A stretch of 64,000 nucleotides of DNA, taken from Tabrizicola sp. Its GTDB lineage: Bacteria > Pseudomonadota > Alphaproteobacteria > Rhodobacterales > Rhodobacteraceae. The notes below the pieces were generated by a model. The model saw only the letters and a program-made list of their open reading frames with translations, made no database searches and was not told the origin of the DNA. Shown piece after piece: positions 52,318 to 64,000 of the stretch (position 1 is the first letter of the stretch; every line of letters begins with the position of its first letter). The position numbers and the translations under genes are program-made. Location of the stretch: contig JALOTD010000052.1 of the NCBI GenBank assembly GCA_025458105.1, positions 1 through 64,000 on the forward strand, in the 5' to 3' direction.

Positions 52318-52437
52318 ATGCACAGCCTTTTGACCGCCGTTACAATCCTGGTTCTCGCCAGTGTTGCCAAAGATCACGTTGCCCATGCCATGACTGAGTG
52401 GGACCCCTTCGCGCTGGACGCCAAACTCGCTGACTGA
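52318..52437 (+). CDS. Possible 39-aa small protein
   Basis: MHSLLTAVTILVLASVAKDHVAHAMTEWDPFALDAKLAD; hydrophobic N-terminus, ATG start. Confidence 0.35.
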   Translation: MHSLLTAVTILVLASVAKDHVAHAMTEWDPFALDAKLAD

Positions 52438-52522
52438 TGGCCGAAACGGCTGAACTGATGGCGAAAATGGAGGGGTTCTTCCACCTGCCTGGCCCTAGAA
52501 CAGGGCAAACAGGAGGTCGGGC

Positions 52523-53773
52523 GTGCGCTATTCCGGATTTCGGGTGATTGCCGAGGCGTTGACGGGCCACAAGGGTTGGAAGCCGGTCTGGAGAGACCCC
52601 GCCCCCCAGCCAGACTATGACTATATCATCATCGGTGGCGGCGGTCATGGACTGGCAACGGCCTACTACCTTGCCAAGGAATTCGGTCAGGCCCGGATTG
52701 CGGTACTGGAGAAGGGCTACCTTGGCGGCGGCAACGTAGGCCGCAACACCACGATCATCCGGTCGAACTACCTTCTGGACGGGAACGAGCCGTTCTATGA
52801 GTTCAGCCTGAAGCTTTGGGAGGGGCTGGAGCAGGACTTCAACTACAATGCGATGGTCAGCCAGCGCGGGATCATCAACCTGATCCACACTGACGCGCAG
52901 CGCGATGCGGCCACCCGGCGCGGCAATGCGATGATCCTGCACGGCGCGGATGCGGAACTTCTGACGCGCGAGCAGGTGCGGGCGATGTATCCGTGGCTGA
53001 ACTTCGACAACGCCCGCTTTCCAATCAAGGGAGCGCTGATGCAGCGCCGGGGCGGCACGGTGCGGCATGATGCGGTCGCCTGGGGCTATGCGCGCGGGGC
53101 GGACATGCGGGGCGTGGATCTGATCCAGAACTGCGAAGTCACGGGGATGCGGATCGAAGGTGGGCGCATTCGGGGGGTCGAGACCTCGCGCGGCTACATC
53201 GGCGCGAAGAAGGTCGGGGTGGCAGTCGCGGGCTCGTCGTCCAAGGTCATGGCCCATGCCGGAATGCGGCTGCCGATTGAATCCCATGTGCTGCAGGCTT
53301 TTGTGTCCGAAGGTTTGAAGCCGCTGATCGATGGGGTCATGACCTTCGGCGCGGGCCACTTCTATGTCTCGCAATCCGACAAGGGGGGCCTTGTGTTTGG
53401 CGGCGACATCGACGGCTACAATTCCTACGCCCAACGGGGCAATCTGCCGGTGATCGAGGACGTGGCCGAAGGGGGCATGGCACTGATGCCGGCGATTGGC
53501 CGGGTGAGGCTGCTCAGGACCTGGGGCGGGATCATGGACATGTCGATGGACGGGTCCCCCATCATCGACAAGACGCCGGTCGAAGGGCTCTATTTCAACG
53601 GCGGCTGGTGTTACGGAGGGTTCAAGGCGACCCCCGCCAGCGGCTGGTGCTTTGCGCATCTGTTGGCGAATGATCGTTCACATGAGACCGCGAAGGCCTA
53701 TCGGTTCGACCGGTTCCTGAAGGGCCTGATGATCGACGAAAAGGGTCAGGGCGCGACCCCGAACCTGCATTGA
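52523..53773 (+). CDS. mgdA: Heterotetrameric sarcosine oxidase beta / N-methylglutamate dehydrogenase subunit A-like
   Basis: YDYIIIGGGGHGLATAYYLAKEFG, EKGYLGGGNVGRNTTIIRSNY, RRGGTVRHDAVAWGYA. Confidence 0.82.
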   Translation: MRYSGFRVIAEALTGHKGWKPVWRDPAPQPDYDYIIIGGGGHGLATAYYLAKEFGQARIAVLEKGYLGGGNVGRNTTIIRSNYLLDGNEPFYEFSLKLWEGLEQDFNYNAMVSQRGIINLIHTDAQRDAATRRGNAMILHGADAELLTREQVRAMYPWLNFDNARFPIKGALMQRRGGTVRHDAVAWGYARGADMRGVDLIQNCEVTGMRIEGGRIRGVETSRGYIGAKKVGVAVAGSSSKVMAHAGMRLPIESHVLQAFVSEGLKPLIDGVMTFGAGHFYVSQSDKGGLVFGGDIDGYNSYAQRGNLPVIEDVAEGGMALMPAIGRVRLLRTWGGIMDMSMDGSPIIDKTPVEGLYFNGGWCYGGFKATPASGWCFAHLLANDRSHETAKAYRFDRFLKGLMIDEKGQGATPNLH

Positions 53774-53786
53774 AGGGCATTCACGA

Positions 53787-54071
53787 ATGATCATTCACCA
53801 TCCGATCCTCGGCCCCCGCGATGCGCAGGAATTCGTCTATCTCGGCGATGCCAGCTTGATCAATCGGCCCGATGGCATGACTGCCGGGGTGGAGGCGTTC
53901 CACGACTACGCCTACAACCGTGACAACCCGGCGGGGGACCATCGGGAGCTTTGGTATCACGAACAGGGCGACCGATCGTGGCTGGTCGTGACGCGGAACA
54001 CGGTCACGCATGAGATCATAAAAGTGGAACTCGCGCGGGATGTCGCAAGGGCACAGGGACGATCGAAATGA
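53787..54071 (+). CDS. mgdB: Sarcosine oxidase delta / MgdB-like subunit
   Basis: MIIHHPILGPRDAQEFVYLGDASLINRP...ELWYHEQGDRSWLVVTRNTVTHEI. Confidence 0.82.
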   Translation: MIIHHPILGPRDAQEFVYLGDASLINRPDGMTAGVEAFHDYAYNRDNPAGDHRELWYHEQGDRSWLVVTRNTVTHEIIKVELARDVARAQGRSK

Positions 54072-56881
54072 GCCAGTCGCATCGGATTGAAGGCGGGCAG
54101 ATCGACCGGTCAAAGACCCTGCGATTTACCTTCGACGGGCTGCCCTACCTCGGGCATCCGGGGGATACTCTCGCCTCGGCCTTGTTGGCGAACGGCGTGC
54201 GGCTGATGGGGCGCAGCTTCAAGTATCACCGCCCGCGCGGGCCGCTTTCAGCGGGGTCGGAGGAGCCGAACGCCTTGGTTGAACTGCGCAGCGGCGGGCG
54301 GCAAGAGCCGAACACCCGGGCGACGGTGGCGGAGCTTTTTGACGGGCTCGAGGCAAACAGCCAGAACCGCTGGCCGTCCTTGCGGTTTGATGCCTTGGCG
54401 ATCAACGACCGGCTGAACGCCTTCTTCGCGGCGGGGTTCTATTACAAGACGTTCATGTGGCCCAAGTCCTTTTGGGAAAAGCTTTATGAGCCGATGATCC
54501 GTCGCGCGGCCGGGCTGGGTTCGGTCAGCCGCGAGGAGGACCCGGACAGCTATGACAAGGGTTTTCTGCACTGCGATCTACTGGTCATCGGGGCCGGGCC
54601 TTCGGGGTTGATGGCCGCCCTGACGGCAGGGCGCGCAGGCAAGCGGGTGATCCTGGCGGATGAGGATTTCCGCATGGGTGGGCGGCTGAACGCCGAGACC
54701 TTTGCGGTTGCCGGTACTTCTGGCGCCGACTGGGCCAGTGCAGTGGTGGCTGAACTTTCGACACTGCCGAGGGTGCGGCTGCTGGCACGGACAACGGTGC
54801 TGGGGGCCTTTGACCACGGCATCTATTCGGCGGTGGAGCGGGTATCTGACCATCTGCCGGTGCCTGCGGCGGGCAAACCGCGGCAGGTGCTGTGGCGCAT
54901 CTATTCCGACCGTGCAATCCTGTGCGGCGGCGCGACCGAGCGGCCGATTGCTTTCGAGAACAACGACCGACCGGGGATCATGCTGGCAGCGGCGCTGCGC
55001 GCCTATGCCAACCGCTGGGGGGTCAAGGCCGGAGAGCGGATAGCGGTTTTCACCAACAACGACGACGGGCTTCGGACGGCGTCTGACCTGAAGGCGAAAG
55101 GAGTCGAGGTTGTGGCCGTCATCGACTCGCGCGATGGGGAGGAGGTCATCGACACACACGGTCGGCTGGGTCTGAAGACGATCATCACGCGAGACCGGAA
55201 GGGTCGGACACGGGAAATCCGGGTTGACGCATTGGGGGTGTCGGGTGGATGGAATCCGAATGTGAACATCCATTCGCATCATCGGTCGCGGCCAGTCTGG
55301 GATGCGTCGATTGCGGCTTTCGTACCGGGGGCGGAGGGGCCTCCGGGCCTAATGGTCGCGGGAGCGGCGGCGGGAGTGCTTTCGACCCACGGGGCGTTGC
55401 GGACCGGACGGGATGCGGCGATCAGCGCTTTGGGCCTGACGGGAGCTATGGACCTGCCGGAGGCGGAGGACGCGCCGATCAGCGTCAGCGCATTGTGGCA
55501 TGTGGCGCATGGCAAGGGCCGTGCCTGGATCGACCAGCAGAACGATGTGACCGTGAAGGACATCAAGCTGGCCCAGCAGGAGAACTTTACGTCCGTCGAG
55601 CATATGAAACGCTATACCACGCTGGGAATGGCGACGGATCAGGGCAAGACCGGCAACGTCATCGGCCTTGCGATCATGGCGGAACTCACCGGGCGTTCCA
55701 TCCCTGAGACGGGGACGACGATCTATCGCCCGCCCTATACTCCGGTCGCCTTGGGTGCGCTGGCGGGTCGGTCACGGGGAAAGGAATTCAAGCCGTACCG
55801 GTTGACGCCTTCACATCACTGGGCGGCGGAGCAGGGGGCGACCTTTGTCGAGGTCGGCAACTGGTTGCGGACGCAGTGGGTGCCGAAGGCCGGTGAGACG
55901 GAGTGGCGGCAGTCGGTGGACCGCGAGGTTCTGGCGACCCGGAAATCGGTGGGGATCTGCGATGTCACCACCTTGGGCAAGATCGACATTCAGGGCACGG
56001 ATGCGGGGGCATTCCTGGACCGCGTCTATGCCAACACGTTCAGCACCCTGCCCGTGGGCAGGTGCCGCTATGGCCTGATGCTGCGCGAGGATGGGATCGT
56101 CTTTGACGACGGCACCACTGCCCGGATGGGTGAGCATGAGTATGTGATGACCACGACCACGGCCAACGCGGTCACGGTCTTCCGGCATCTAGAGTTCTGC
56201 CGCCAGTGCCTGTGGCCGGACATGGACGTGCAACTGATCAGCACGACCGAGGCCTGGGCGCAGTTTTCGGTCGCGGGGCCGAATGCGCGGCGGTTGTTGG
56301 AAAAGGTGGTCGATCAGGACATCAGCGATGCGGCCTTTCCCTATATGGGGGCCGGGAACATCACCGTTGGCGGCCTTCGGGCTCGGCTGTTCCGGATCAG
56401 CTTTTCGGGCGAGTTGGCTTATGAAATCGCTGTCCCGGTGATGCGGATCGAGAAGGGCCATGTCGCGGGGGGCGAGTTGAACGGTCAGTCCACCGCACTG
56501 AACATGGGGCTGGGCAGGATGGTGTCGAAGAAGAAAGACTCCATCGGCATGGTCCTTAGCCAGCGTGAGGGGCTTACAGACGCGGGTGGTTACAGGTTGG
56601 TGGGGGTTCGGCCGGTGGACCCCAAGGCCAAGTTGACGGCGGGAAGCCACTTTCTGGAGAAGGGCGCGGCTGCAGTGGCGGCGAATGATGGGGGGTGGCT
56701 GACATCAAAGGTGTATTCCCCGCACATCGGCAGCGACATTGCGCTAGGGTATCTGAAAGGCGGCGACAGCAAGATCGGCACACGGATGCGGGCGGTGAAT
56801 CTGCTGATTGGGCAAGACACCGAGGTGGAGATCGTCAGCCCGCATTTCCTTGATCCGGAAGGAGAGCGGCTTCGTGGCTAG
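54068..56881 (+). CDS. mgdC: Sarcosine oxidase alpha / MgdC-like subunit, with an apparent in-frame internal deletion near 56437
   Basis: GDTLASALLANGVRLMGRSFKYHRPRG, FNDRPGIM-like, GMATDQGKTGNVIGLAIMAELTGR, DVTTLGKIDIQGTDA, FSGELAYEIAVP. Confidence 0.85.
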   Translation: MSQSHRIEGGQIDRSKTLRFTFDGLPYLGHPGDTLASALLANGVRLMGRSFKYHRPRGPLSAGSEEPNALVELRSGGRQEPNTRATVAELFDGLEANSQNRWPSLRFDALAINDRLNAFFAAGFYYKTFMWPKSFWEKLYEPMIRRAAGLGSVSREEDPDSYDKGFLHCDLLVIGAGPSGLMAALTAGRAGKRVILADEDFRMGGRLNAETFAVAGTSGADWASAVVAELSTLPRVRLLARTTVLGAFDHGIYSAVERVSDHLPVPAAGKPRQVLWRIYSDRAILCGGATERPIAFENNDRPGIMLAAALRAYANRWGVKAGERIAVFTNNDDGLRTASDLKAKGVEVVAVIDSRDGEEVIDTHGRLGLKTIITRDRKGRTREIRVDALGVSGGWNPNVNIHSHHRSRPVWDASIAAFVPGAEGPPGLMVAGAAAGVLSTHGALRTGRDAAISALGLTGAMDLPEAEDAPISVSALWHVAHGKGRAWIDQQNDVTVKDIKLAQQENFTSVEHMKRYTTLGMATDQGKTGNVIGLAIMAELTGRSIPETGTTIYRPPYTPVALGALAGRSRGKEFKPYRLTPSHHWAAEQGATFVEVGNWLRTQWVPKAGETEWRQSVDREVLATRKSVGICDVTTLGKIDIQGTDAGAFLDRVYANTFSTLPVGRCRYGLMLREDGIVFDDGTTARMGEHEYVMTTTTANAVTVFRHLEFCRQCLWPDMDVQLISTTEAWAQFSVAGPNARRLLEKVVDQDISDAAFPYMGAGNITVGGLRARLFRISFSGELAYEIAVPVMRIEKGHVAGGELNGQSTALNMGLGRMVSKKKDSIGMVLSQREGLTDAGGYRLVGVRPVDPKAKLTAGSHFLEKGAAAVAANDGGWLTSKVYSPHIGSDIALGYLKGGDSKIGTRMRAVNLLIGQDTEVEIVSPHFLDPEGERLRG

Positions 56882-57416
56882 TCTTATGGCAATGACCGCG
56901 CTTGGCGCCCGGGAGGCGGCGGTGGTGACCGTTGGGCCGCTGAGCATTGCCGAGCGGGTGGATGTGGCCGTCGCCTCGGTTGCGGTGCGGCGGGGGCGGG
57001 TGTTGGCGGCGGGGGTGATACCGCAGCCGGGGCCAAGCCGCTGGGAGGCGGGCAAGCCCTTCAGCGCCTTCTGGGTAACGCCGGATATGTGGTTCGTGGA
57101 AGCGGATTTCGCAGCGCATGAGCTGCTTGCAGACGGGCTGAAGGCGAGCTTTGGCGATGCGGCCAGTGTGACGGAGCAGACGGACGCTTGGGTGATCTTC
57201 GATCTTTCGGCGCCCGACCTTGCCCCGGTGTTCGAGCGGCTGTGCAACGTGGATTTTCAAGCTTTGCCAGAGGGATACGCAACCCGCACGGTGTTGGACC
57301 ATCTGGGGGTATACCTGATCAAGCACGGCTCTGGAGCGGCGCGTGTCTATGGCCCAAGGTCCAGTGCGCAAAGCCTGCTTCATGCCTTGAAGATCGCAGC
57401 CCGCTCGGCGTTTTAG
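56874..57416 (+). CDS. mgdD: Sarcosine oxidase gamma / MgdD-like subunit
   Basis: SVTEQTDAWVIFDL, CNVDFQALPEGYATRTVLDHLGVYL, RSSAQSLLHAL; overlaps mgdC stop. Confidence 0.8.
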   Translation: MASLMAMTALGAREAAVVTVGPLSIAERVDVAVASVAVRRGRVLAAGVIPQPGPSRWEAGKPFSAFWVTPDMWFVEADFAAHELLADGLKASFGDAASVTEQTDAWVIFDLSAPDLAPVFERLCNVDFQALPEGYATRTVLDHLGVYLIKHGSGAARVYGPRSSAQSLLHALKIAARSAF

Positions 57417-58108
57417 GGCCTTGACCAAGCGAAGGCTCGGGCGAGGTAGGCCCGGGCGTCGGATGTGATAGGCGTGCCATGCGCCATCACGACATTCTTC
57501 ACGGGCCAGCCCAGGACTGTGGCCATGGCTTGTCGCAACGCTTTCCGGTCGGTGAAGGCTAGGCGGAATTTTCGGGGCACGCGGGGTTCGGGCCCGGTCA
57601 TCCCGTCCAGCCGCGCGACAATTGACCGCCAGCCGGAGAACCAACCCGGCGGGAGGCCTTGCAGGAGGTCTGTGAACAGCGCAGTTCCGCTTTCGCGATG
57701 GAAAAAGACGGCCTCGTCAGCGATGCGATTGTGCAGGACGGTCTGGTCGATTTGGCCGGCCCAGTCGGGATGGGGCGTGTCGGTGATGTCGGCGTCAAAG
57801 GCCAGATCAGGGCGCCTGTCGCGCAGACCAGGTGCGGCGTGCATGATTGCGGCTGGGAAGGCCGCCTTCCACTGGCCGATGAAAAGATTGTGCAATTTGT
57901 TGGGCGCGATGAGATGGTGGACGGGACCGAGCCTGCCAACCGCAGCGCAGAGAGCCTCGCCTGGCGCGACGGGGGACAAGAGGACCAGTCCGCCCGCTGA
58001 AAGCTTGATGACGGCCATCCGTGTCGGGTATGCGAACCCGGCGGCGGCGTTTACCGTCGGGCCATCGGCAAGCCAGAGGTCGGGTGCGAAAGAGTGCAGC
58101 ATTTCCAT
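57413..58108 (-). CDS. DUF4336 domain-containing protein
   Basis: LVLLSPVAPGEAL, HHLIAPNKLHNLFIGQW, FTDLLQGLP, VMAHGTPI. Confidence 0.72.
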   Translation of the reverse strand: MEMLHSFAPDLWLADGPTVNAAAGFAYPTRMAVIKLSAGGLVLLSPVAPGEALCAAVGRLGPVHHLIAPNKLHNLFIGQWKAAFPAAIMHAAPGLRDRRPDLAFDADITDTPHPDWAGQIDQTVLHNRIADEAVFFHRESGTALFTDLLQGLPPGWFSGWRSIVARLDGMTGPEPRVPRKFRLAFTDRKALRQAMATVLGWPVKNVVMAHGTPITSDARAYLARAFAWSRP

Positions 58109-58183
58109 GAACCAGAGTACGCGCATAGAGCCTAGCCCGGCCGATCGTGCCGCTCAACCGTGAGGCGCTTGCACCCGAGTGTG

Positions 58184-58200
58184 TTTCCCGGTAGTGAAAA
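58184..58200. promoter_or_regulatory. Candidate XRE-cupin operator dyad, autoregulatory copy
   Basis: TTTCCCG-GTA-GTGAAAA, 32 nt before the regulator ATG; matches 62339-62356. Confidence 0.45.
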
Positions 58201-58232
58201 TATGTAGCGATTGATGCCTTGGGGACGCCACC

Positions 58233-58892
58233 ATGTCCGATGATTCTTCCGCAGTCACCTTACCGCGCGGCAAGCCTGCCTTTGACCAGGATCCGCACCG
58301 CGTTCGAGAAATCAGCGAGAGAAACCTGGAAGCGGCAATTGGCCGCGAGGTGCGGAACTTTCGTCGTCAGCAGGGCATGACCGTCGCCGATCTGGCCAAT
58401 GTTACCGGCCTGTCGATCGGGATGTTGTCAAAGATCGAGAACGGCAATACCTCGCCCAGCCTGACGACCCTGCAAGTGCTGAGCCATGCGTTTTCCGTCC
58501 CGGTGACAGCCTTCTTCAAGAGTTATGAGGAACGCCGCGAGGCCCAGCATGTGCGGGCAGGAGAGCACATCGAGATCGAGCGTCGCGGCACGCGTGCCGG
58601 GCATCAGTACAACCTGCTGGGGCATATCGGCTCCAACAGCTCGGGCGTGGTGGTCGAACCTTACATCATCACCCTGACCACCGAGAGCGATACCTTCCCG
58701 GCCTTCCAGCATGAGGGGCTGGAGCTTCTGTACATGCTTGAGGGAGAGGTGGATTATCGCCACGGCGACACGGTCTATCCGCTGAAGCCGGGGGACAGCC
58801 TCTTCTTCGATGCGGATGCGCCACATGGACCAGAGGGCCTTGTGCGCTTGCCGGCGCGGTATCTGTCGGTGATCTGCTACCCGCAGGGCTGA
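58233..58892 (+). CDS. XRE-family transcriptional regulator with C-terminal cupin domain
   Basis: VRNFRRQQGMTVADLANVTGLSIGMLSKIENGNTSPSLTTLQVLSHAF; EGLELLYMLEGEVDYRHGDTVYPLKPGDSLFFDADAPHGPE. Confidence 0.92.
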   Translation: MSDDSSAVTLPRGKPAFDQDPHRVREISERNLEAAIGREVRNFRRQQGMTVADLANVTGLSIGMLSKIENGNTSPSLTTLQVLSHAFSVPVTAFFKSYEERREAQHVRAGEHIEIERRGTRAGHQYNLLGHIGSNSSGVVVEPYIITLTTESDTFPAFQHEGLELLYMLEGEVDYRHGDTVYPLKPGDSLFFDADAPHGPEGLVRLPARYLSVICYPQG

Positions 58893-58952
58893 TCGGGGCG
58901 CAAGAGTTTCTGAAGACTCCTGCCGGTTTCATCGACGGTACTTGGCCTTGGG

Positions 58953-59222
58953 CTAGGATTGCGCGTGCTCCCACACAGCGCGGCGGATACGGGCGGTCTT
59001 GTAGGCGTCGAGGATCGCCATGGCCCAGACGAACAGCCCTCCGGACACTTTGCCCACGAAGGACACGTCCGGTGCAGCGGTCTTCAGCGTAAAGGCCCCA
59101 AGGAGGACGGCGAAGCAGACGAAGATCAGCCCCCGTACGGGCTGGCGGTTCAGGACCTGGCCCATGCCGGGCAGGATGATCGCCACGGCAAGGACAAGGC
59201 GGGGGTTCAGCGGTGGTTTCAT
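58953..59222 (-). CDS. Small hypothetical membrane protein
   Basis: 89 aa, PGMGQVLNRQPVRGLIF, TM segments; ATGA overlap with 59219-59878. Confidence 0.65.
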   Translation of the reverse strand: MKPPLNPRLVLAVAIILPGMGQVLNRQPVRGLIFVCFAVLLGAFTLKTAAPDVSFVGKVSGGLFVWAMAILDAYKTARIRRAVWEHAQS

Positions 59223-59878
59223 GGCTGATCCTTCAGGATGTCGGCGCGCAAGGCGGCAAGCCGGTCAAGCAACGGCGCAAGGCGGGCAGGGGGCAGGGGG
59301 GTCATCCCCATCTCGGCCTCGCGGAAGATGAGGAAGCGGCCACGGTCGGCCTCCTCGGCCAGGATCACGATGCGCAGGCCCTTCGGTGAGAGGACCAGCT
59401 CCTTGACCTGCGGGTCGTCGAAGAGATCGCCGATCAGATCGGCAGGTGGAACGTGGGTGGCGTCATCGGTGCGGATCGCGACATGGGCGGGCAGGCTGGG
59501 CGGGGTGGGCAAGGACTGCGGCAGGGTCGGGAAACGGCTGAAGGGTTCGTTGCCCGAGGGGCGGGCCATCAGGTTCAGCGTGGCCTTTAGCGGCAGGGGT
59601 TCGGGCAGGGTGATAAGGACCCAAAGCGCAGGGAGCTTGCGGAAGGTCAGGGTGTCGGGAATGGCCTGCAGGTCGTAGCTGATCCCGCCCCGCTTGCCTG
59701 TCATGCGGGGAAAGCCGGTCGGTTGCAGGCGCGTCTCACCGCCATCGAACAGGAGTTTCAGTGCTGAAAAATACCCGGCGCGGGCTGCGCTTCGGGCGCG
59801 GGTTTCGCGGACAAGGCGAAAGGTCAGCCAAAGGCCGAGGACGGCTAAAGCAAGGCCAAGGGGAAGAAGCGGGGACAT
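59219..59878 (-). CDS. Hypothetical membrane-anchored protein
   Basis: 219-aa ORF with N-terminal TM. Confidence 0.6.
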   Translation of the reverse strand: MSPLLPLGLALAVLGLWLTFRLVRETRARSAARAGYFSALKLLFDGGETRLQPTGFPRMTGKRGGISYDLQAIPDTLTFRKLPALWVLITLPEPLPLKATLNLMARPSGNEPFSRFPTLPQSLPTPPSLPAHVAIRTDDATHVPPADLIGDLFDDPQVKELVLSPKGLRIVILAEEADRGRFLIFREAEMGMTPLPPARLAPLLDRLAALRADILKDQP

Positions 59879-59916
59879 GGGAATTGGCCCGCCCCTGTCG
59901 GGACGGGCCTTCGACC

Positions 59917-61353
59917 TTAGTAGCCCTGCGGTTTCGGCCAGGGCATGGTGAACTGAGCGCCCCGGTTCACAAAGCGGTAGCGCCAGAAGTGGAACCAGAG
60001 CGACACGACGATGTAGAAGCCCACCATCGCCACCAGTTGTGTCCCGTAGCCGAGGAACACCGCGAAGAAAGTCACGCCGCAGAGCGTAAGAAGCGTGATC
60101 GCGGGCAGCGGGTGGAACGGATGCTCATACCCCCGCTTGATCGAGTTCAGCGGCCACTTGCGGCGGAACAGGATGATGTTCAGCGGCATGAAGGTATAGC
60201 CGAGAAGCCCGGAGAGGATCGAGAAGGTGATCACCTGATCCAGAGGCGCGCCAAGGGCGAAGATCAGCGCAATGGGGACCAGGAACACGATCGACCGGTA
60301 GGGCGTGCGGTAGCGCGGATGCACCGCGCCGAACCAGCCGGGCAGGTACTTGTCGCGGCCCATGGCGAACCAAGCGCGGGACGCGTCGTTGATGCAGCCG
60401 TTGGCCGAGGCGAGCGTGGCGAAGAGGGTGCCGAAGCCGAGAAGCCAGACAAGCGCCGTCGACCCCGACAGACGCGCCGTATCGAACAGGGGCGCCACCG
60501 AGCCGTTGACCCCGTCGCCCAGGAACTCCCACGGCAGGACGCCCGAGCAGACGTACCAGGTGAGCGTCGCGGCGATGAGAAGCGTCATGATCCCGGCCAG
60601 CGTGCCGAACGGCAGCGCGCGGGCGGGGGAGCGGACTTCCTCGGCGGCCTGGGTCGTGCCCTCGATGCCAAGGTAGTACCAGAGGCCGAAGTGCATGGCG
60701 GCAAGAACGCCGATCCAGCCGTAGGGCAGCTCGTGGCCCTCGAACAGCGCTGCATGCTCCATGATGCCGCCGCCGAGGATGCCGGAGGTGGACAGGAACA
60801 GGACGATGATCGCAAGGAAGGCGATTGCGGTGATGACGAGGTTGAAGGTCAGCGTCGCCAGCACGCCCCGGTAGTTCAGCCAGGCCAGGAACATGATGAC
60901 CAGGATGATGAAGGGCCGCTGGTCTAGCGCGTCGGCATGTCCGCTCATCGTCGCCACGACCGAGAAGAGGTAGCCCGCCGTGATCGCGTTGGCGGCTTCC
61001 AGCATCGTGTAGGCGAAGACGAGGTAGAGGCCGACGTTGAAGGCCATCAGCGGGCCGATGATGTGCTTGGCCTGGGTGTACTGGCCCCCGGCCGAGGCGA
61101 CGGTCGAGGTGACCTCGGAGTCGATCATCGCGACACAGGTGTAGAGGATGCCCGCGAACCAGCAGGCGATCAGGGCCGCGTAGGCGCCGCCTTTGCCGAC
61201 GGCGAAGTTCCAGCCCATGTATTCGCCGACGAGAACGATGCCGACGCCAAGCGCCCAGACATGCGCCGGGCCGAGGACCCGCAGGAGGCCGACCTTGGTG
61301 CCATGCGGCCCCATGCCGTCCATCGTGGGTGAGGTGATGTCGACCTGGGTCAT
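59917..61353 (-). CDS. APC family amino acid permease
   Basis: LGPAHVWALGVGIVLVGEYMGWNFAVGKGGAYAALI...WYYLGIEGTTQAAEEVRSPARALPFG; 12 TM-like segments. Confidence 0.88.
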   Translation of the reverse strand: MTQVDITSPTMDGMGPHGTKVGLLRVLGPAHVWALGVGIVLVGEYMGWNFAVGKGGAYAALIACWFAGILYTCVAMIDSEVTSTVASAGGQYTQAKHIIGPLMAFNVGLYLVFAYTMLEAANAITAGYLFSVVATMSGHADALDQRPFIILVIMFLAWLNYRGVLATLTFNLVITAIAFLAIIVLFLSTSGILGGGIMEHAALFEGHELPYGWIGVLAAMHFGLWYYLGIEGTTQAAEEVRSPARALPFGTLAGIMTLLIAATLTWYVCSGVLPWEFLGDGVNGSVAPLFDTARLSGSTALVWLLGFGTLFATLASANGCINDASRAWFAMGRDKYLPGWFGAVHPRYRTPYRSIVFLVPIALIFALGAPLDQVITFSILSGLLGYTFMPLNIILFRRKWPLNSIKRGYEHPFHPLPAITLLTLCGVTFFAVFLGYGTQLVAMVGFYIVVSLWFHFWRYRFVNRGAQFTMPWPKPQGY

Positions 61354-61523
61354 GATTTCACCTTGTGCTCTTCGGCCATCGCTTCAAGCTCGCCTTCGCG
61401 CGAGGAGGTCAGGACGTCTTCCGAATAGGTCGAGTCGGTTTTCAGCCAGTCGACCAGCATGTGCAGGCCGAACAGGGCCGACAGCGCCCACGCGCCGTAT
61501 TCCAGCCAGTTCCAGAGATCCAT
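61350..61523 (-). CDS. 57-aa small membrane protein linked to the APC permease
   Basis: MDLWNWLEYGAWALSALFGLHMLVDWLKTDSTYSEDVLTSSREGELEAMAEEHKVKS; ATGA overlap with the permease start. Confidence 0.7.
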   Translation of the reverse strand: MDLWNWLEYGAWALSALFGLHMLVDWLKTDSTYSEDVLTSSREGELEAMAEEHKVKS

Positions 61524-61529
61524 GGCGGC

Positions 61530-61907
61530 TTACTCCCCGAATTTTTCGGAAATGACCTCGCGGTACTCCACTTCGGAAAACCGCAGGATCAGGACGTAGT
61601 AGAGGACGATGACCACAATCATCATCAGAAGCGCGCCGATCGAGAAGCTGTAGTCGAAGCGCGCGAGGATCAGGTCATGGGCGGTCTCGGGTGTGTAGCC
61701 CAGGGCCTCGTACTTGGCCGATTGCGCCGGGGTCTGGCCCAGGGTTTCCCAGGTAGGGGTAGTGACCGGGTTGGTGACGGACTTTGCCGCCCCGGCCAGA
61801 CCAAGCCACAGGGGCACGAACAGCGCGCCGACAGTCAGGACCACCAGCACGACCACGTCGATCAGCTGGCTGGCCTTGCCCTGTTTCGGAGGTTGGTAAT
61901 GCGCCAT
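61530..61907 (-). CDS. Hypothetical two-TM protein in the permease cluster
   Basis: 125-aa ORF with two strong TM segments; adjacent to the permease. Confidence 0.7.
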   Translation of the reverse strand: MAHYQPPKQGKASQLIDVVVLVVLTVGALFVPLWLGLAGAAKSVTNPVTTPTWETLGQTPAQSAKYEALGYTPETAHDLILARFDYSFSIGALLMMIVVIVLYYVLILRFSEVEYREVISEKFGE

Positions 61908-62191
61908 CACTTCCTCCCCTTGGCTTCGTCGAGGAACTTGATGTCGAGGCCGTACATGAAGTCGCGGTCCTCACGGTAGTGCCGCAGCATGGCCAGGATA
62001 GCGGCGGTGTTGAACACCAGGACGATGGCGCCGCCGATCAGAAGCAGGGTCCGCGCGCCGCTGGTCGGTGCAAGGTCCCAGGTAGCGAGCGCGACGAAGA
62101 TCACGGCAAACCAGAGGCCGATCACGAACGCCCATGCCACCAGCACGTCGCGTCGGTGCATCGCCTCAATCCGCTGATTAAGGTCTCCCAC
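61907..62191 (-). CDS. Hypothetical two-TM protein in the permease cluster
   Basis: 94-aa ORF, abuts/overlaps the next gene. Confidence 0.7.
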   Translation of the reverse strand: MGDLNQRIEAMHRRDVLVAWAFVIGLWFAVIFVALATWDLAPTSGARTLLLIGGAIVLVFNTAAILAMLRHYREDRDFMYGLDIKFLDEAKGRK

Positions 62192-62338
62192 ATTTCCCTC
62201 CCTTGGGCTGTTTGTCTTGCCGCCCCCGACGCAGCCCCGACGCCGTTTCCCTCCGCGGCAAAATTGTTTTCCAAAGGGAAAGCCACCTGCGACATTCTGT
62301 CAAGAAAAACCGCACATGCCTGATCCTTAGGCAGTGAT

Positions 62339-62356
62339 TTTCCCGTCAGGTGAAAA
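62339..62356. promoter_or_regulatory. Candidate XRE-cupin operator dyad upstream of mgsA
   Basis: TTTCCCG-TCAG-GTGAAAA, matches 58184-58200. Confidence 0.45.
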
Positions 62357-62428
62357 ATGTTTCTCCCCAGTTGATAGGCTTTCCGGACGGTGCTAGCCTC
62401 AGATCAACGACGAGAAGGAGACGAATCC

Positions 62429-63325
62429 ATGTGTGGCATCGTTGGGCTGTTCCTCAAGGACCCGAAGCTGGAGCCGAAGCTGGGGGCCATGTTGACGGAC
62501 ATGCTGATCACCATGACCGACCGCGGACCGGACAGCGCGGGGATCGCGATCTATGGCGGGGCGAAGGACGGTCTGGGCAAGATCACCATCCAGTCGGCGC
62601 ATCCGGAAAAGGACTTCAAGGACCTGGATGGCGAACTGCATGACGCCATTGGCCAGCCGGTGACGATGCTGGTGAAGTCGACCCATGCCGTGCTGGAAGT
62701 GCCATTGGCGCAGATGGAGGCGGCCCGCTCGGCGCTGGCGCATCTGCGGCCCGCCGTGAAGGTGATGAGCGCGGGCGACAGCATCGAGATCTTCAAGGAG
62801 GTGGGTCTGCCCAAGGACGTGGCCGCCCGCTTCGAGGTCGCCAAGATGAAGGGCACCCATGGTATCGGCCATACCCGGATGGCGACGGAATCGGCGGTGA
62901 CGACGATGGGCGCGCACCCGTTTTCGACGGGGTCGGACCAGTGCCTGGTGCATAACGGGTCGCTGTCGAACCACAACGGCGTTCGGCGCGAGCTGAAGCG
63001 TCTCGGCATGACCTTCGAGACCGAGAACGACACCGAGGTCGGTGCGGCCTTCATCAGCCACAAGCTGCAGACCGGCGAGACGCTGGGCAACGCGCTGGAG
63101 GCGACGCTGACCGACCTCGACGGGTTCTTCACTTTCGTCGTCGGCACCAAGAACGGCTTTGGCGTCGTCCGCGACCCCATCGCCTGCAAGCCTGCCGTCA
63201 TGGCCGAGACCGACCAGTACGTCGCCTTCGGGTCGGAGTATCGGGCGCTGGTCAACCTGCCGGGCATCGAGGACGCCCGCGTCTGGGAACCGGAACCCGC
63301 CACTGTCTACTTCTGGGAGCGTTGA
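62429..63325 (+). CDS. mgsA: Class II glutamine amidotransferase (GlxB / N-methylglutamate synthase subunit A-like)
   Basis: MCGIVGLFLKDPKLEPKLG (N-terminal Cys nucleophile), DRGPDSAGIAIYG, GIGHTRMATESAV, VHNGSLSNHNGVRREL. Confidence 0.83.
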   Translation: MCGIVGLFLKDPKLEPKLGAMLTDMLITMTDRGPDSAGIAIYGGAKDGLGKITIQSAHPEKDFKDLDGELHDAIGQPVTMLVKSTHAVLEVPLAQMEAARSALAHLRPAVKVMSAGDSIEIFKEVGLPKDVAARFEVAKMKGTHGIGHTRMATESAVTTMGAHPFSTGSDQCLVHNGSLSNHNGVRRELKRLGMTFETENDTEVGAAFISHKLQTGETLGNALEATLTDLDGFFTFVVGTKNGFGVVRDPIACKPAVMAETDQYVAFGSEYRALVNLPGIEDARVWEPEPATVYFWER

Positions 63326-63329
63326 GAGA

Positions 63330-64000
63330 ATGCAGACCTTCGACCTGGGGAAAGAGGGCCTGCGCGCCCTGAACTCCTCGCTTCACGCCCTGAAGGGCCA
63401 GACCAACATGACGGCCTGGGAAGTGATCAACCCGAAAGGCGCGCATGCGATTGCCGCCGGGGTGGATGCGCCGGTCGACATCACCGTGCGGGGCTCCACG
63501 GGCTATTACTGCGCGGGGATGAACAAGCAGGCGACGATCCGCATCAAGGGCTCTGCCGGGCCGGGTGTGGCCGAGAATATGATGTCAGGGACCGTCATCA
63601 TCGACGGCGATGCCAGCCAATACGCAGGCGCGACGGGGCGCGGGGGGCTTCTGGTCATCAAGGGCAACGCGTCCAGCCGCTGCGGGATCTCGATGAAGGG
63701 CATCGACATCGTGGTGCACGGCAACATCGGCCACATGTCTTGTTTCATGGCACAGTCGGGCAACATGGTGGTGCTGGGCAACGCGGGCGAGGCGCTGGGC
63801 GACAGCCTTTACGAGGCGCGGCTGTTCGTGCGGGGCACGGTAAAATCGCTGGGTGCCGACTGCATCGAGAAAGAGATGCGGGACGAGCACTATGCGATCC
63901 TGGAGGAACTCCTGCGCCGCGGTGAGGCCGACCACAAGGCCAAGCCCGAGGAATTCCGCCGTTACGGCAGCGCCCGGAAACTCTACAATTTCAACATCGA
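63330..64000 (+). CDS. mgsB: GXGXG motif protein (GlxC / N-methylglutamate synthase subunit B-like), truncated by the window end
   Basis: GSTGYYCAGMNKQATIRIKGSAGPGVAENMMSGTVIIDGDASQYAGATGRGGLLVIKGNASSRCGISMKG. Confidence 0.83.
   Translation, partial: MQTFDLGKEGLRALNSSLHALKGQTNMTAWEVINPKGAHAIAAGVDAPVDITVRGSTGYYCAGMNKQATIRIKGSAGPGVAENMMSGTVIIDGDASQYAGATGRGGLLVIKGNASSRCGISMKGIDIVVHGNIGHMSCFMAQSGNMVVLGNAGEALGDSLYEARLFVRGTVKSLGADCIEKEMRDEHYAILEELLRRGEADHKAKPEEFRRYGSARKLYNFNI

Follow-up and report, generated by a model that had tools for sequence, protein, structure and literature searches.

The window analysed here, a 64,000-nucleotide stretch of DNA from Tabrizicola sp., encodes an XRE-cupin transcription regulator and the beginning of an mgs operon, which raises the question of whether the one controls the other. 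A first-pass annotation had noticed that two 7-mers recur, in the same order and orientation, 5' of the regulator gene and 5' of mgsA, and had proposed autoregulation together with direct control of the pathway. Conservation of the site at both promoters and the way it tracks the xre gene support this proposal: judged from sequence, the XRE-cupin protein probably controls its own gene and the mgs pathway.

Two matching sites and their promoters

The features of the two loci are as follows.

58169..58197, forward strand: probable xre core promoter from the alignment, TTGCAC (58169-58174), 17 nt, TAGTGA (58192-58197)
58184..58200, forward strand: dyad TTTCCCG-GTA-GTGAAAA, candidate auto-operator by its rarity and conservation
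58233..58892, forward strand: XRE-cupin transcription regulator, 219 aa (HTH_3 and Cupin_2)
62339..62356, forward strand: dyad O1, TTTCCCG-TCAG-GTGAAAA, from same-genus conservation and TTKCC...GAAAA across 59 loci
62360..62376, forward strand: O2, a weaker second copy (TTTCTCCCCAGTTGATA) 21 bp downstream of O1, overlapping the -35 hexamer
62371..62399, forward strand: probable mgsA core promoter from alignment conservation, TTGATA (62371-62376), 17 nt, TAGCCT (62394-62399)
62429..63325, forward strand: mgsA-like class II glutamine amidotransferase (MCGIVGL; Pfam GATase_6), first gene of mgsABC-gmaS
63330..63998, forward strand: mgsB-like GXGXG protein (PF01493), running beyond the window end

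The regulator has the N-terminal XRE/HTH_3 and C-terminal Cupin_2 domains that define XRE-cupin regulators, and both Pfam matches are over the cut-off (PF01381, 46.5 bits; PF07883, 47.2 bits). Its orthologues are 89-95% identical within the genus, and the recognition helix SxGMLSKxENG is kept down to 52% identity. All relatives share the MCGIVGL amino terminus, and this fixes the start of mgsA. The contig (64,061 bases) stops just after mgsB, and mgsC and gmaS are seen in relatives only; there, the gene types of an mgsABC-gmaS operon stand in order (mgsA, mgsB, an mgsC resembling glutamate synthase, and a GlnA-III/gmaS-like synthetase), and genes for trimethylamine monooxygenase and an ammonium transporter lie nearby. 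This gene set fits the N-methylglutamate pathway.

The two sites lie on the forward strand where the first-pass annotation placed them, and the distances that it gave are exact: between position 58200 and the ATG of the regulator gene (58233) there are 32 nt, and between position 62356 and the ATG of mgsA (62429) there are 72 nt. The pattern TTTCCCGN{3,5}GTGAAAA has two matches in the window and none in 100 dinucleotide shuffles. A scan of the 4.1 Mb genome finds TTTCCCN{4,6}GTGAAAA only at these two sites, and the reversed control pattern has no match there. A weight matrix built from the sites of other genomes gives them the two highest scores of the 64 kb window, 16.1 and 16.0, the next best being 12.4. 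Besides these two, there are further related elements: O2, which overlaps the -35 box of mgsA, and one at the -10 region of the promoter that drives the divergent permease operon.

In the Tabrizicola sp. genome the dyad is imperfect (arms TTTCCC / GTGAAA), and the spacer differs by one nucleotide between the two sites, a caution already raised in the first-pass annotation. The difference is real, and the length of the dyad varies more widely, from 14 at the permease operon to 15-16 at xre and 15-17 at mgsA. Such elasticity (14-17) is odd for a rigid dimer. Orthologous sites, too, differ from one another by one nucleotide in spacing, as TTTCCCGGTAGGAAA in Frigidibacter does from TTTCCCGGTAGTGAAA in Szabonella, so the spacer difference is no objection; this meets the caution but does not account for the variation.

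In the alignment of xre promoters the TTG of the -35 box is invariant and TAGTGA nearly so, and the dyad overlies the spacer and the -10 of this probable promoter. Strict sigma-70 consensus scans upstream of xre and upstream of mgsA found no promoter, and the boxes given here for both genes are therefore taken from the alignments only. A DUF4336 gene (57413-58126, reverse strand) lies between soxG and the regulator gene and stands head to head with the latter, 106 bp apart. In most mapped relatives the gap from the end of soxG to the regulator gene is about 70-120 bp, which leaves DUF4336 no room. The dyad at 58184 could act on the DUF4336 gene too.

At mgsA, the TTTC and CAGTTGA of O2 are invariant or nearly so inside the genus and beyond, and we read O2 as a putative second operator. 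The most invariant block of the promoter across orders is GAAAAWWTNTTTC, which lies between both dyads and makes the exact binding register uncertain. GAAA-N4-TTTC was considered as the operator centre; it is better conserved at mgsA, but its orientation is opposite to that of the xre palindrome, and we therefore take it for the place where two tandem dyads meet.

Conservation of the sites and a possible third target

The first-pass annotation had named absence of the motif upstream of orthologous genes as a result that would tell against its reading; the motif is present there. In the genus, represented by 30 loci with a regulator at about 90% identity or above, the site is conserved 5' of both genes. 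The alignment upstream of xre contains the nearly invariant gTTTCCyGnTAGTGAAA, with a conserved dyad in all the loci; no other 17-nt window 5' of xre is as conserved as this dyad, whose mean pairwise identity is 0.907, vs 0.581 overall. The dyad also precedes mgsA in nearly all same-genus loci, where the consensus is TTTTCCCGACAGGTGAAAwwwGTTTCTTaCCAGTTGATA, followed by 17 nt and TAGCGT. Both genes also keep the site in several genomes where they are unlinked, among them G022, with the genes on different large contigs, and G005, with about 119 kb between them.

A search of 32 genus genomes with TTTCCYGNYAGN{0,2}GAAA gave 50 matches, compared to 6 for the reversed control; 22 of the 50 lie at xre and 16 at mgsA, which leaves 12 at other places. 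The 12 scattered matches are mostly within unrelated genes and inconsistently placed; the regulon therefore appears very small, and no wider one is claimed.

Outside the genus, the comparison covered 80 loci from public genomes, mostly of other Rhodobacterales genera and Hyphomicrobiales, and the site is recognisable across both orders. Both promoters keep a dyad of the form TTTCMY-N3-5-RKGAAA. Its inverted arms form a perfect palindrome at the xre site of Gemmobacter (TTTCACTATAGTGAAA); the xre site reads TTTCCCGGTAGGAAA in Frigidibacter, TTTCACGGTAGTAAA in Pseudorhodobacter and GTTCACCTwGAGTGAAA in Mesorhizobium. The position-by-position consensus for mgsA, drawn from 59 loci, is TTKCCTnAnAGGAAAAWWTnTTTCnTnnnAGTTGA.

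The best TTTCMY-N3-5-RKGAAA match of each upstream region was scored out of 12, with the home genus left out. A score of at least 11/12 is reached by 53% of the xre upstreams vs 2.6% of shuffles, and a score of at least 10/12 by 93% of the mgsA upstreams vs 19% of shuffles, figures that are somewhat optimistic because the motif model was refined after some of the sequences had been inspected. The control upstreams of mgdA are not enriched at 11/12 (4% vs 2.7%) and are enriched at 10/12 (42% vs 16%).

The one-nucleotide difference in spacer would suit a chance likeness of two 17-18 nt stretches. Conservation at orthologous positions refutes this explanation; the rarity of the pattern, the shuffles and the enrichment outside the genus also speak against it, and its probability is negligible.

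The genes transcribed away from mgsA may form a further target. The relevant features are as follows.

59917..61353, reverse strand: amino-acid/ethanolamine-type permease (PF00324, PF13520), probable target
61907..62191, reverse strand: first gene of the divergent permease operon, 94 aa, no family match
62267..62281, reverse strand: proposed third, weaker dyad TTTCCCTTTGGAAAA in the permease -10 region, ranked 19 by the weight matrix in the window
62297..62307, reverse strand: TTTCTTGACAG, containing the permease -35 TTGACA (62298-62303), ranked 6 by the weight matrix in the window

Besides the APC-type permease, this operon encodes small proteins that match no family, and the permease adjoins mgsA divergently in most of the same-genus loci mapped. 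A TTTCC...GGAAAA dyad is found at the permease -10, 16 nt downstream of TTGACA, and TTTCC...GAAA dyads are kept at this position in related genera (other Rhodobacterales). The TTTCTTGACAG element is strongly conserved across the genus.

In Mesorhizobium, TTTCACTCTCTTGAAA is found near the permease start. The permease upstreams of this genus (loci L230, L231, L235, L236, L243 and others) carry, downstream of TTGACA, a very strongly conserved TATGAAAAAAATTTCACTCTsTTGAAAG, which resembles the mgsA element and the xre dyad alike.

The longer sequence CTGCGACATTCTGTCAAGAAAAAC (62290-62315 in the window) is almost invariant in the genus. Two genomes without a permease orthologue have it as well, G014 in retained and G007 in altered form. 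Since it is kept there, it may serve mgsA besides the permease promoter.

The XRE-cupin gene, TmaR and the distribution of the site

A phylogenetic profile was drawn with one genome per genus for 111 genera: 27 have both xre and mgsA, 4 have mgsA only and 80 have neither (Fisher p 6e-22), so that none of the 27 genera with the XRE-cupin gene lacks mgsA. Of the 26 genomes with xre that were tested, 24 have a significant mgsA element, vs none of the 4 without xre. This co-occurrence of site and regulator is strong support, short of proof because the group without xre is small (4) and also lacks TmaR, and because the genomes share ancestry. Genomes G068, G076, G104 and G156 have mgsA (53-68% identity), and have neither the XRE-cupin gene nor a TmaR orthologue at the threshold used.

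AraC proteins favour direct repeats of about 21 bp that reach the -35. O1 and O2 form a direct repeat of 20-21 bp whose proximal copy lies over the -35, the usual layout for this family, and the mgsA element could therefore be the site of the AraC-type activator TmaR. In Ruegeria pomeroyi, TmaR binds the gmaS-mgs promoter and activates methylated-amine catabolism as master regulator, mgdA included; the inducer was inferred to be a downstream catabolite and was not identified (PMC13390433). Most genomes of the genus encode a protein like TmaR, with 51-54% identity to the roseobacter query. However, of the 26 genera with xre that were compared, 12 lack a TmaR orthologue at E<=1e-75, and the mgsA element persists in most such genera: it is significant in 9 of the 11 tested genomes that have xre and lack a TmaR orthologue. 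Across genera, the element is thus not confined to those where TmaR is present. The xre promoter, moreover, bears the dyad with no adjacent AraC gene in the genus, and its site in Gemmobacter is a perfect palindrome. The pattern of presence and absence of TmaR leads us to set this explanation largely aside, and we regard it as unlikely.

The upstream region of mgdA, another gene under TmaR activation in R. pomeroyi, argues in the same direction, as it conserves a different direct repeat. In the window, the soxBDAG-like operon (52523-57416) encodes SoxB and SoxA proteins that pass the sarcosine-oxidase models (scores 696 and 1242 for cut-offs of 529 and 1164), and SoxD and SoxG proteins that miss the cut-offs (85/116 and 39/144), so the operon may instead encode an N-methylglutamate dehydrogenase (mgdABCD). 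It does not look like a target of the regulator: in the genus, no dyad was found upstream of this operon, and the different direct repeat stands there instead. The mgdA upstream repeat is TGTCCGA-like in roseobacters and TGGCGAAAACGG in this genus. At about 52425-52500 of the window, upstream of the operon, the direct repeats TGGCsGAAAcGG and TGGCGAAAAcGG are spaced by about 22 bp and followed by CCTAGAAC; these elements are conserved in nearly all of 24 aligned sequences. The repeats are a candidate TmaR (AraC) site.

Conservation could also reflect core promoter function (spacer, -35, -10 and A-tracts) with no operator at all, since at xre the dyad shares bases with the -10, and at mgsA O2 shares bases with the -35. 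O1 does not fit this account: it is symmetric, lies upstream of the -35 and recurs in two unrelated promoters and almost nowhere else in the genome, and the mgsA promoters of genomes without xre lack it. We give the core-promoter explanation very little weight. No greater weight falls to the binding of the dyad by some other regulator, such as a distant XRE-cupin paralogue or a nitrogen-control protein. The genome does hold three further XRE-type matches, with 27-30% identity for two among the matches listed; on the other hand, the site stands directly 5' of the regulator gene in every genus genome that has it and follows the presence of this regulator across genera, and the 12 other matches are inconsistently placed.

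A proposed mechanism and related systems

With a probability of about 0.75, both sites are operators of the XRE-cupin protein, which would repress xre, mgsABC-gmaS and likely the permease operon until an effector bound by the cupin domain releases the protein from DNA. A helix-turn-helix dimer would bind the dyad TTTCMY-N3-5-RKGAAA. At xre, binding over the spacer and the -10 would limit the regulator's own expression. At mgsA, O1 and O2, two helical turns apart, would be bound together, probably cooperatively, with O2 over the -35, and their occupancy would keep mgsABC-gmaS off, and with it the route from methylamine through gamma-glutamylmethylamide to N-methylglutamate. The permease operon would be a likely third target, through the related dyad at its -10. 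The cupin domain probably senses methylamine or methylated glutamate, upon which the DNA would be released.

The positions of the dyads over promoter boxes suit repression by blocking of RNA polymerase. We infer the regulatory sign, because O1, about 60 nt upstream of the expected mgsA start (about -60), would also suit an activator. A broader idea, which we find possible but doubtful, is that elastic XRE-cupin operators (14-17 bp, with a tandem pair at mgsA) form a second, wider control of the N-methylglutamate pathway in Alphaproteobacteria, beneath TmaR and sensing methylated glutamate.

Methylamines make up an important share of the organic nitrogen dissolved in the sea. Only recently has one activator, TmaR, been linked to control of the N-methylglutamate route (PMC13390433). 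If the proposed switch is real, a conserved repressor and its operator would explain control in the many mgsABC genera without TmaR, and a concrete site, a protein and candidate effectors are now available for testing.

TmaR shares the gmaS-mgs target genes with the proposed regulator (PMC13390433), but it belongs to the AraC family, is absent from many genera that keep the dyad and goes with a different repeat at mgdA. An XRE-family gene recurs in the TMA/DMA/MMA clusters of Rhodobacteraceae (PMC7574528). It is probably the gene of this regulator; the passages of that study consulted here mark its presence and propose neither site nor target. A search of open-licence papers found no XRE-cupin operator, site or target for mgs genes.

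The best equivalog match to the regulator is PuuR (NF007408), the putrescine-utilisation repressor, which has the same two domains; the regulator is not a PuuR orthologue, as it scores 62.1 bits for a cut-off of 211. PuuR governs a pathway that starts with the gamma-glutamylation of an amine.

The XRE-cupin proteins of Pseudomonas aeruginosa are local transcription inhibitors which bind beside their own gene at palindromic core-promoter sites (PMC7901475). The Tabrizicola regulator shares the helix-turn-helix and cupin architecture of PauR, PsdR, ErfA and others, and on the proposed reading it would share with the P. aeruginosa proteins a small, local metabolic regulon and a palindromic core-promoter site by its own gene (PMC7901475). 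The comparison with the P. aeruginosa operators covers site type and placement. Unlike those proteins, the proposed regulator would act on the N-methylglutamate pathway, and its proposed target is unlinked from it in some genomes. The regulator and its operator are thus probably a new example of a familiar type of switch.
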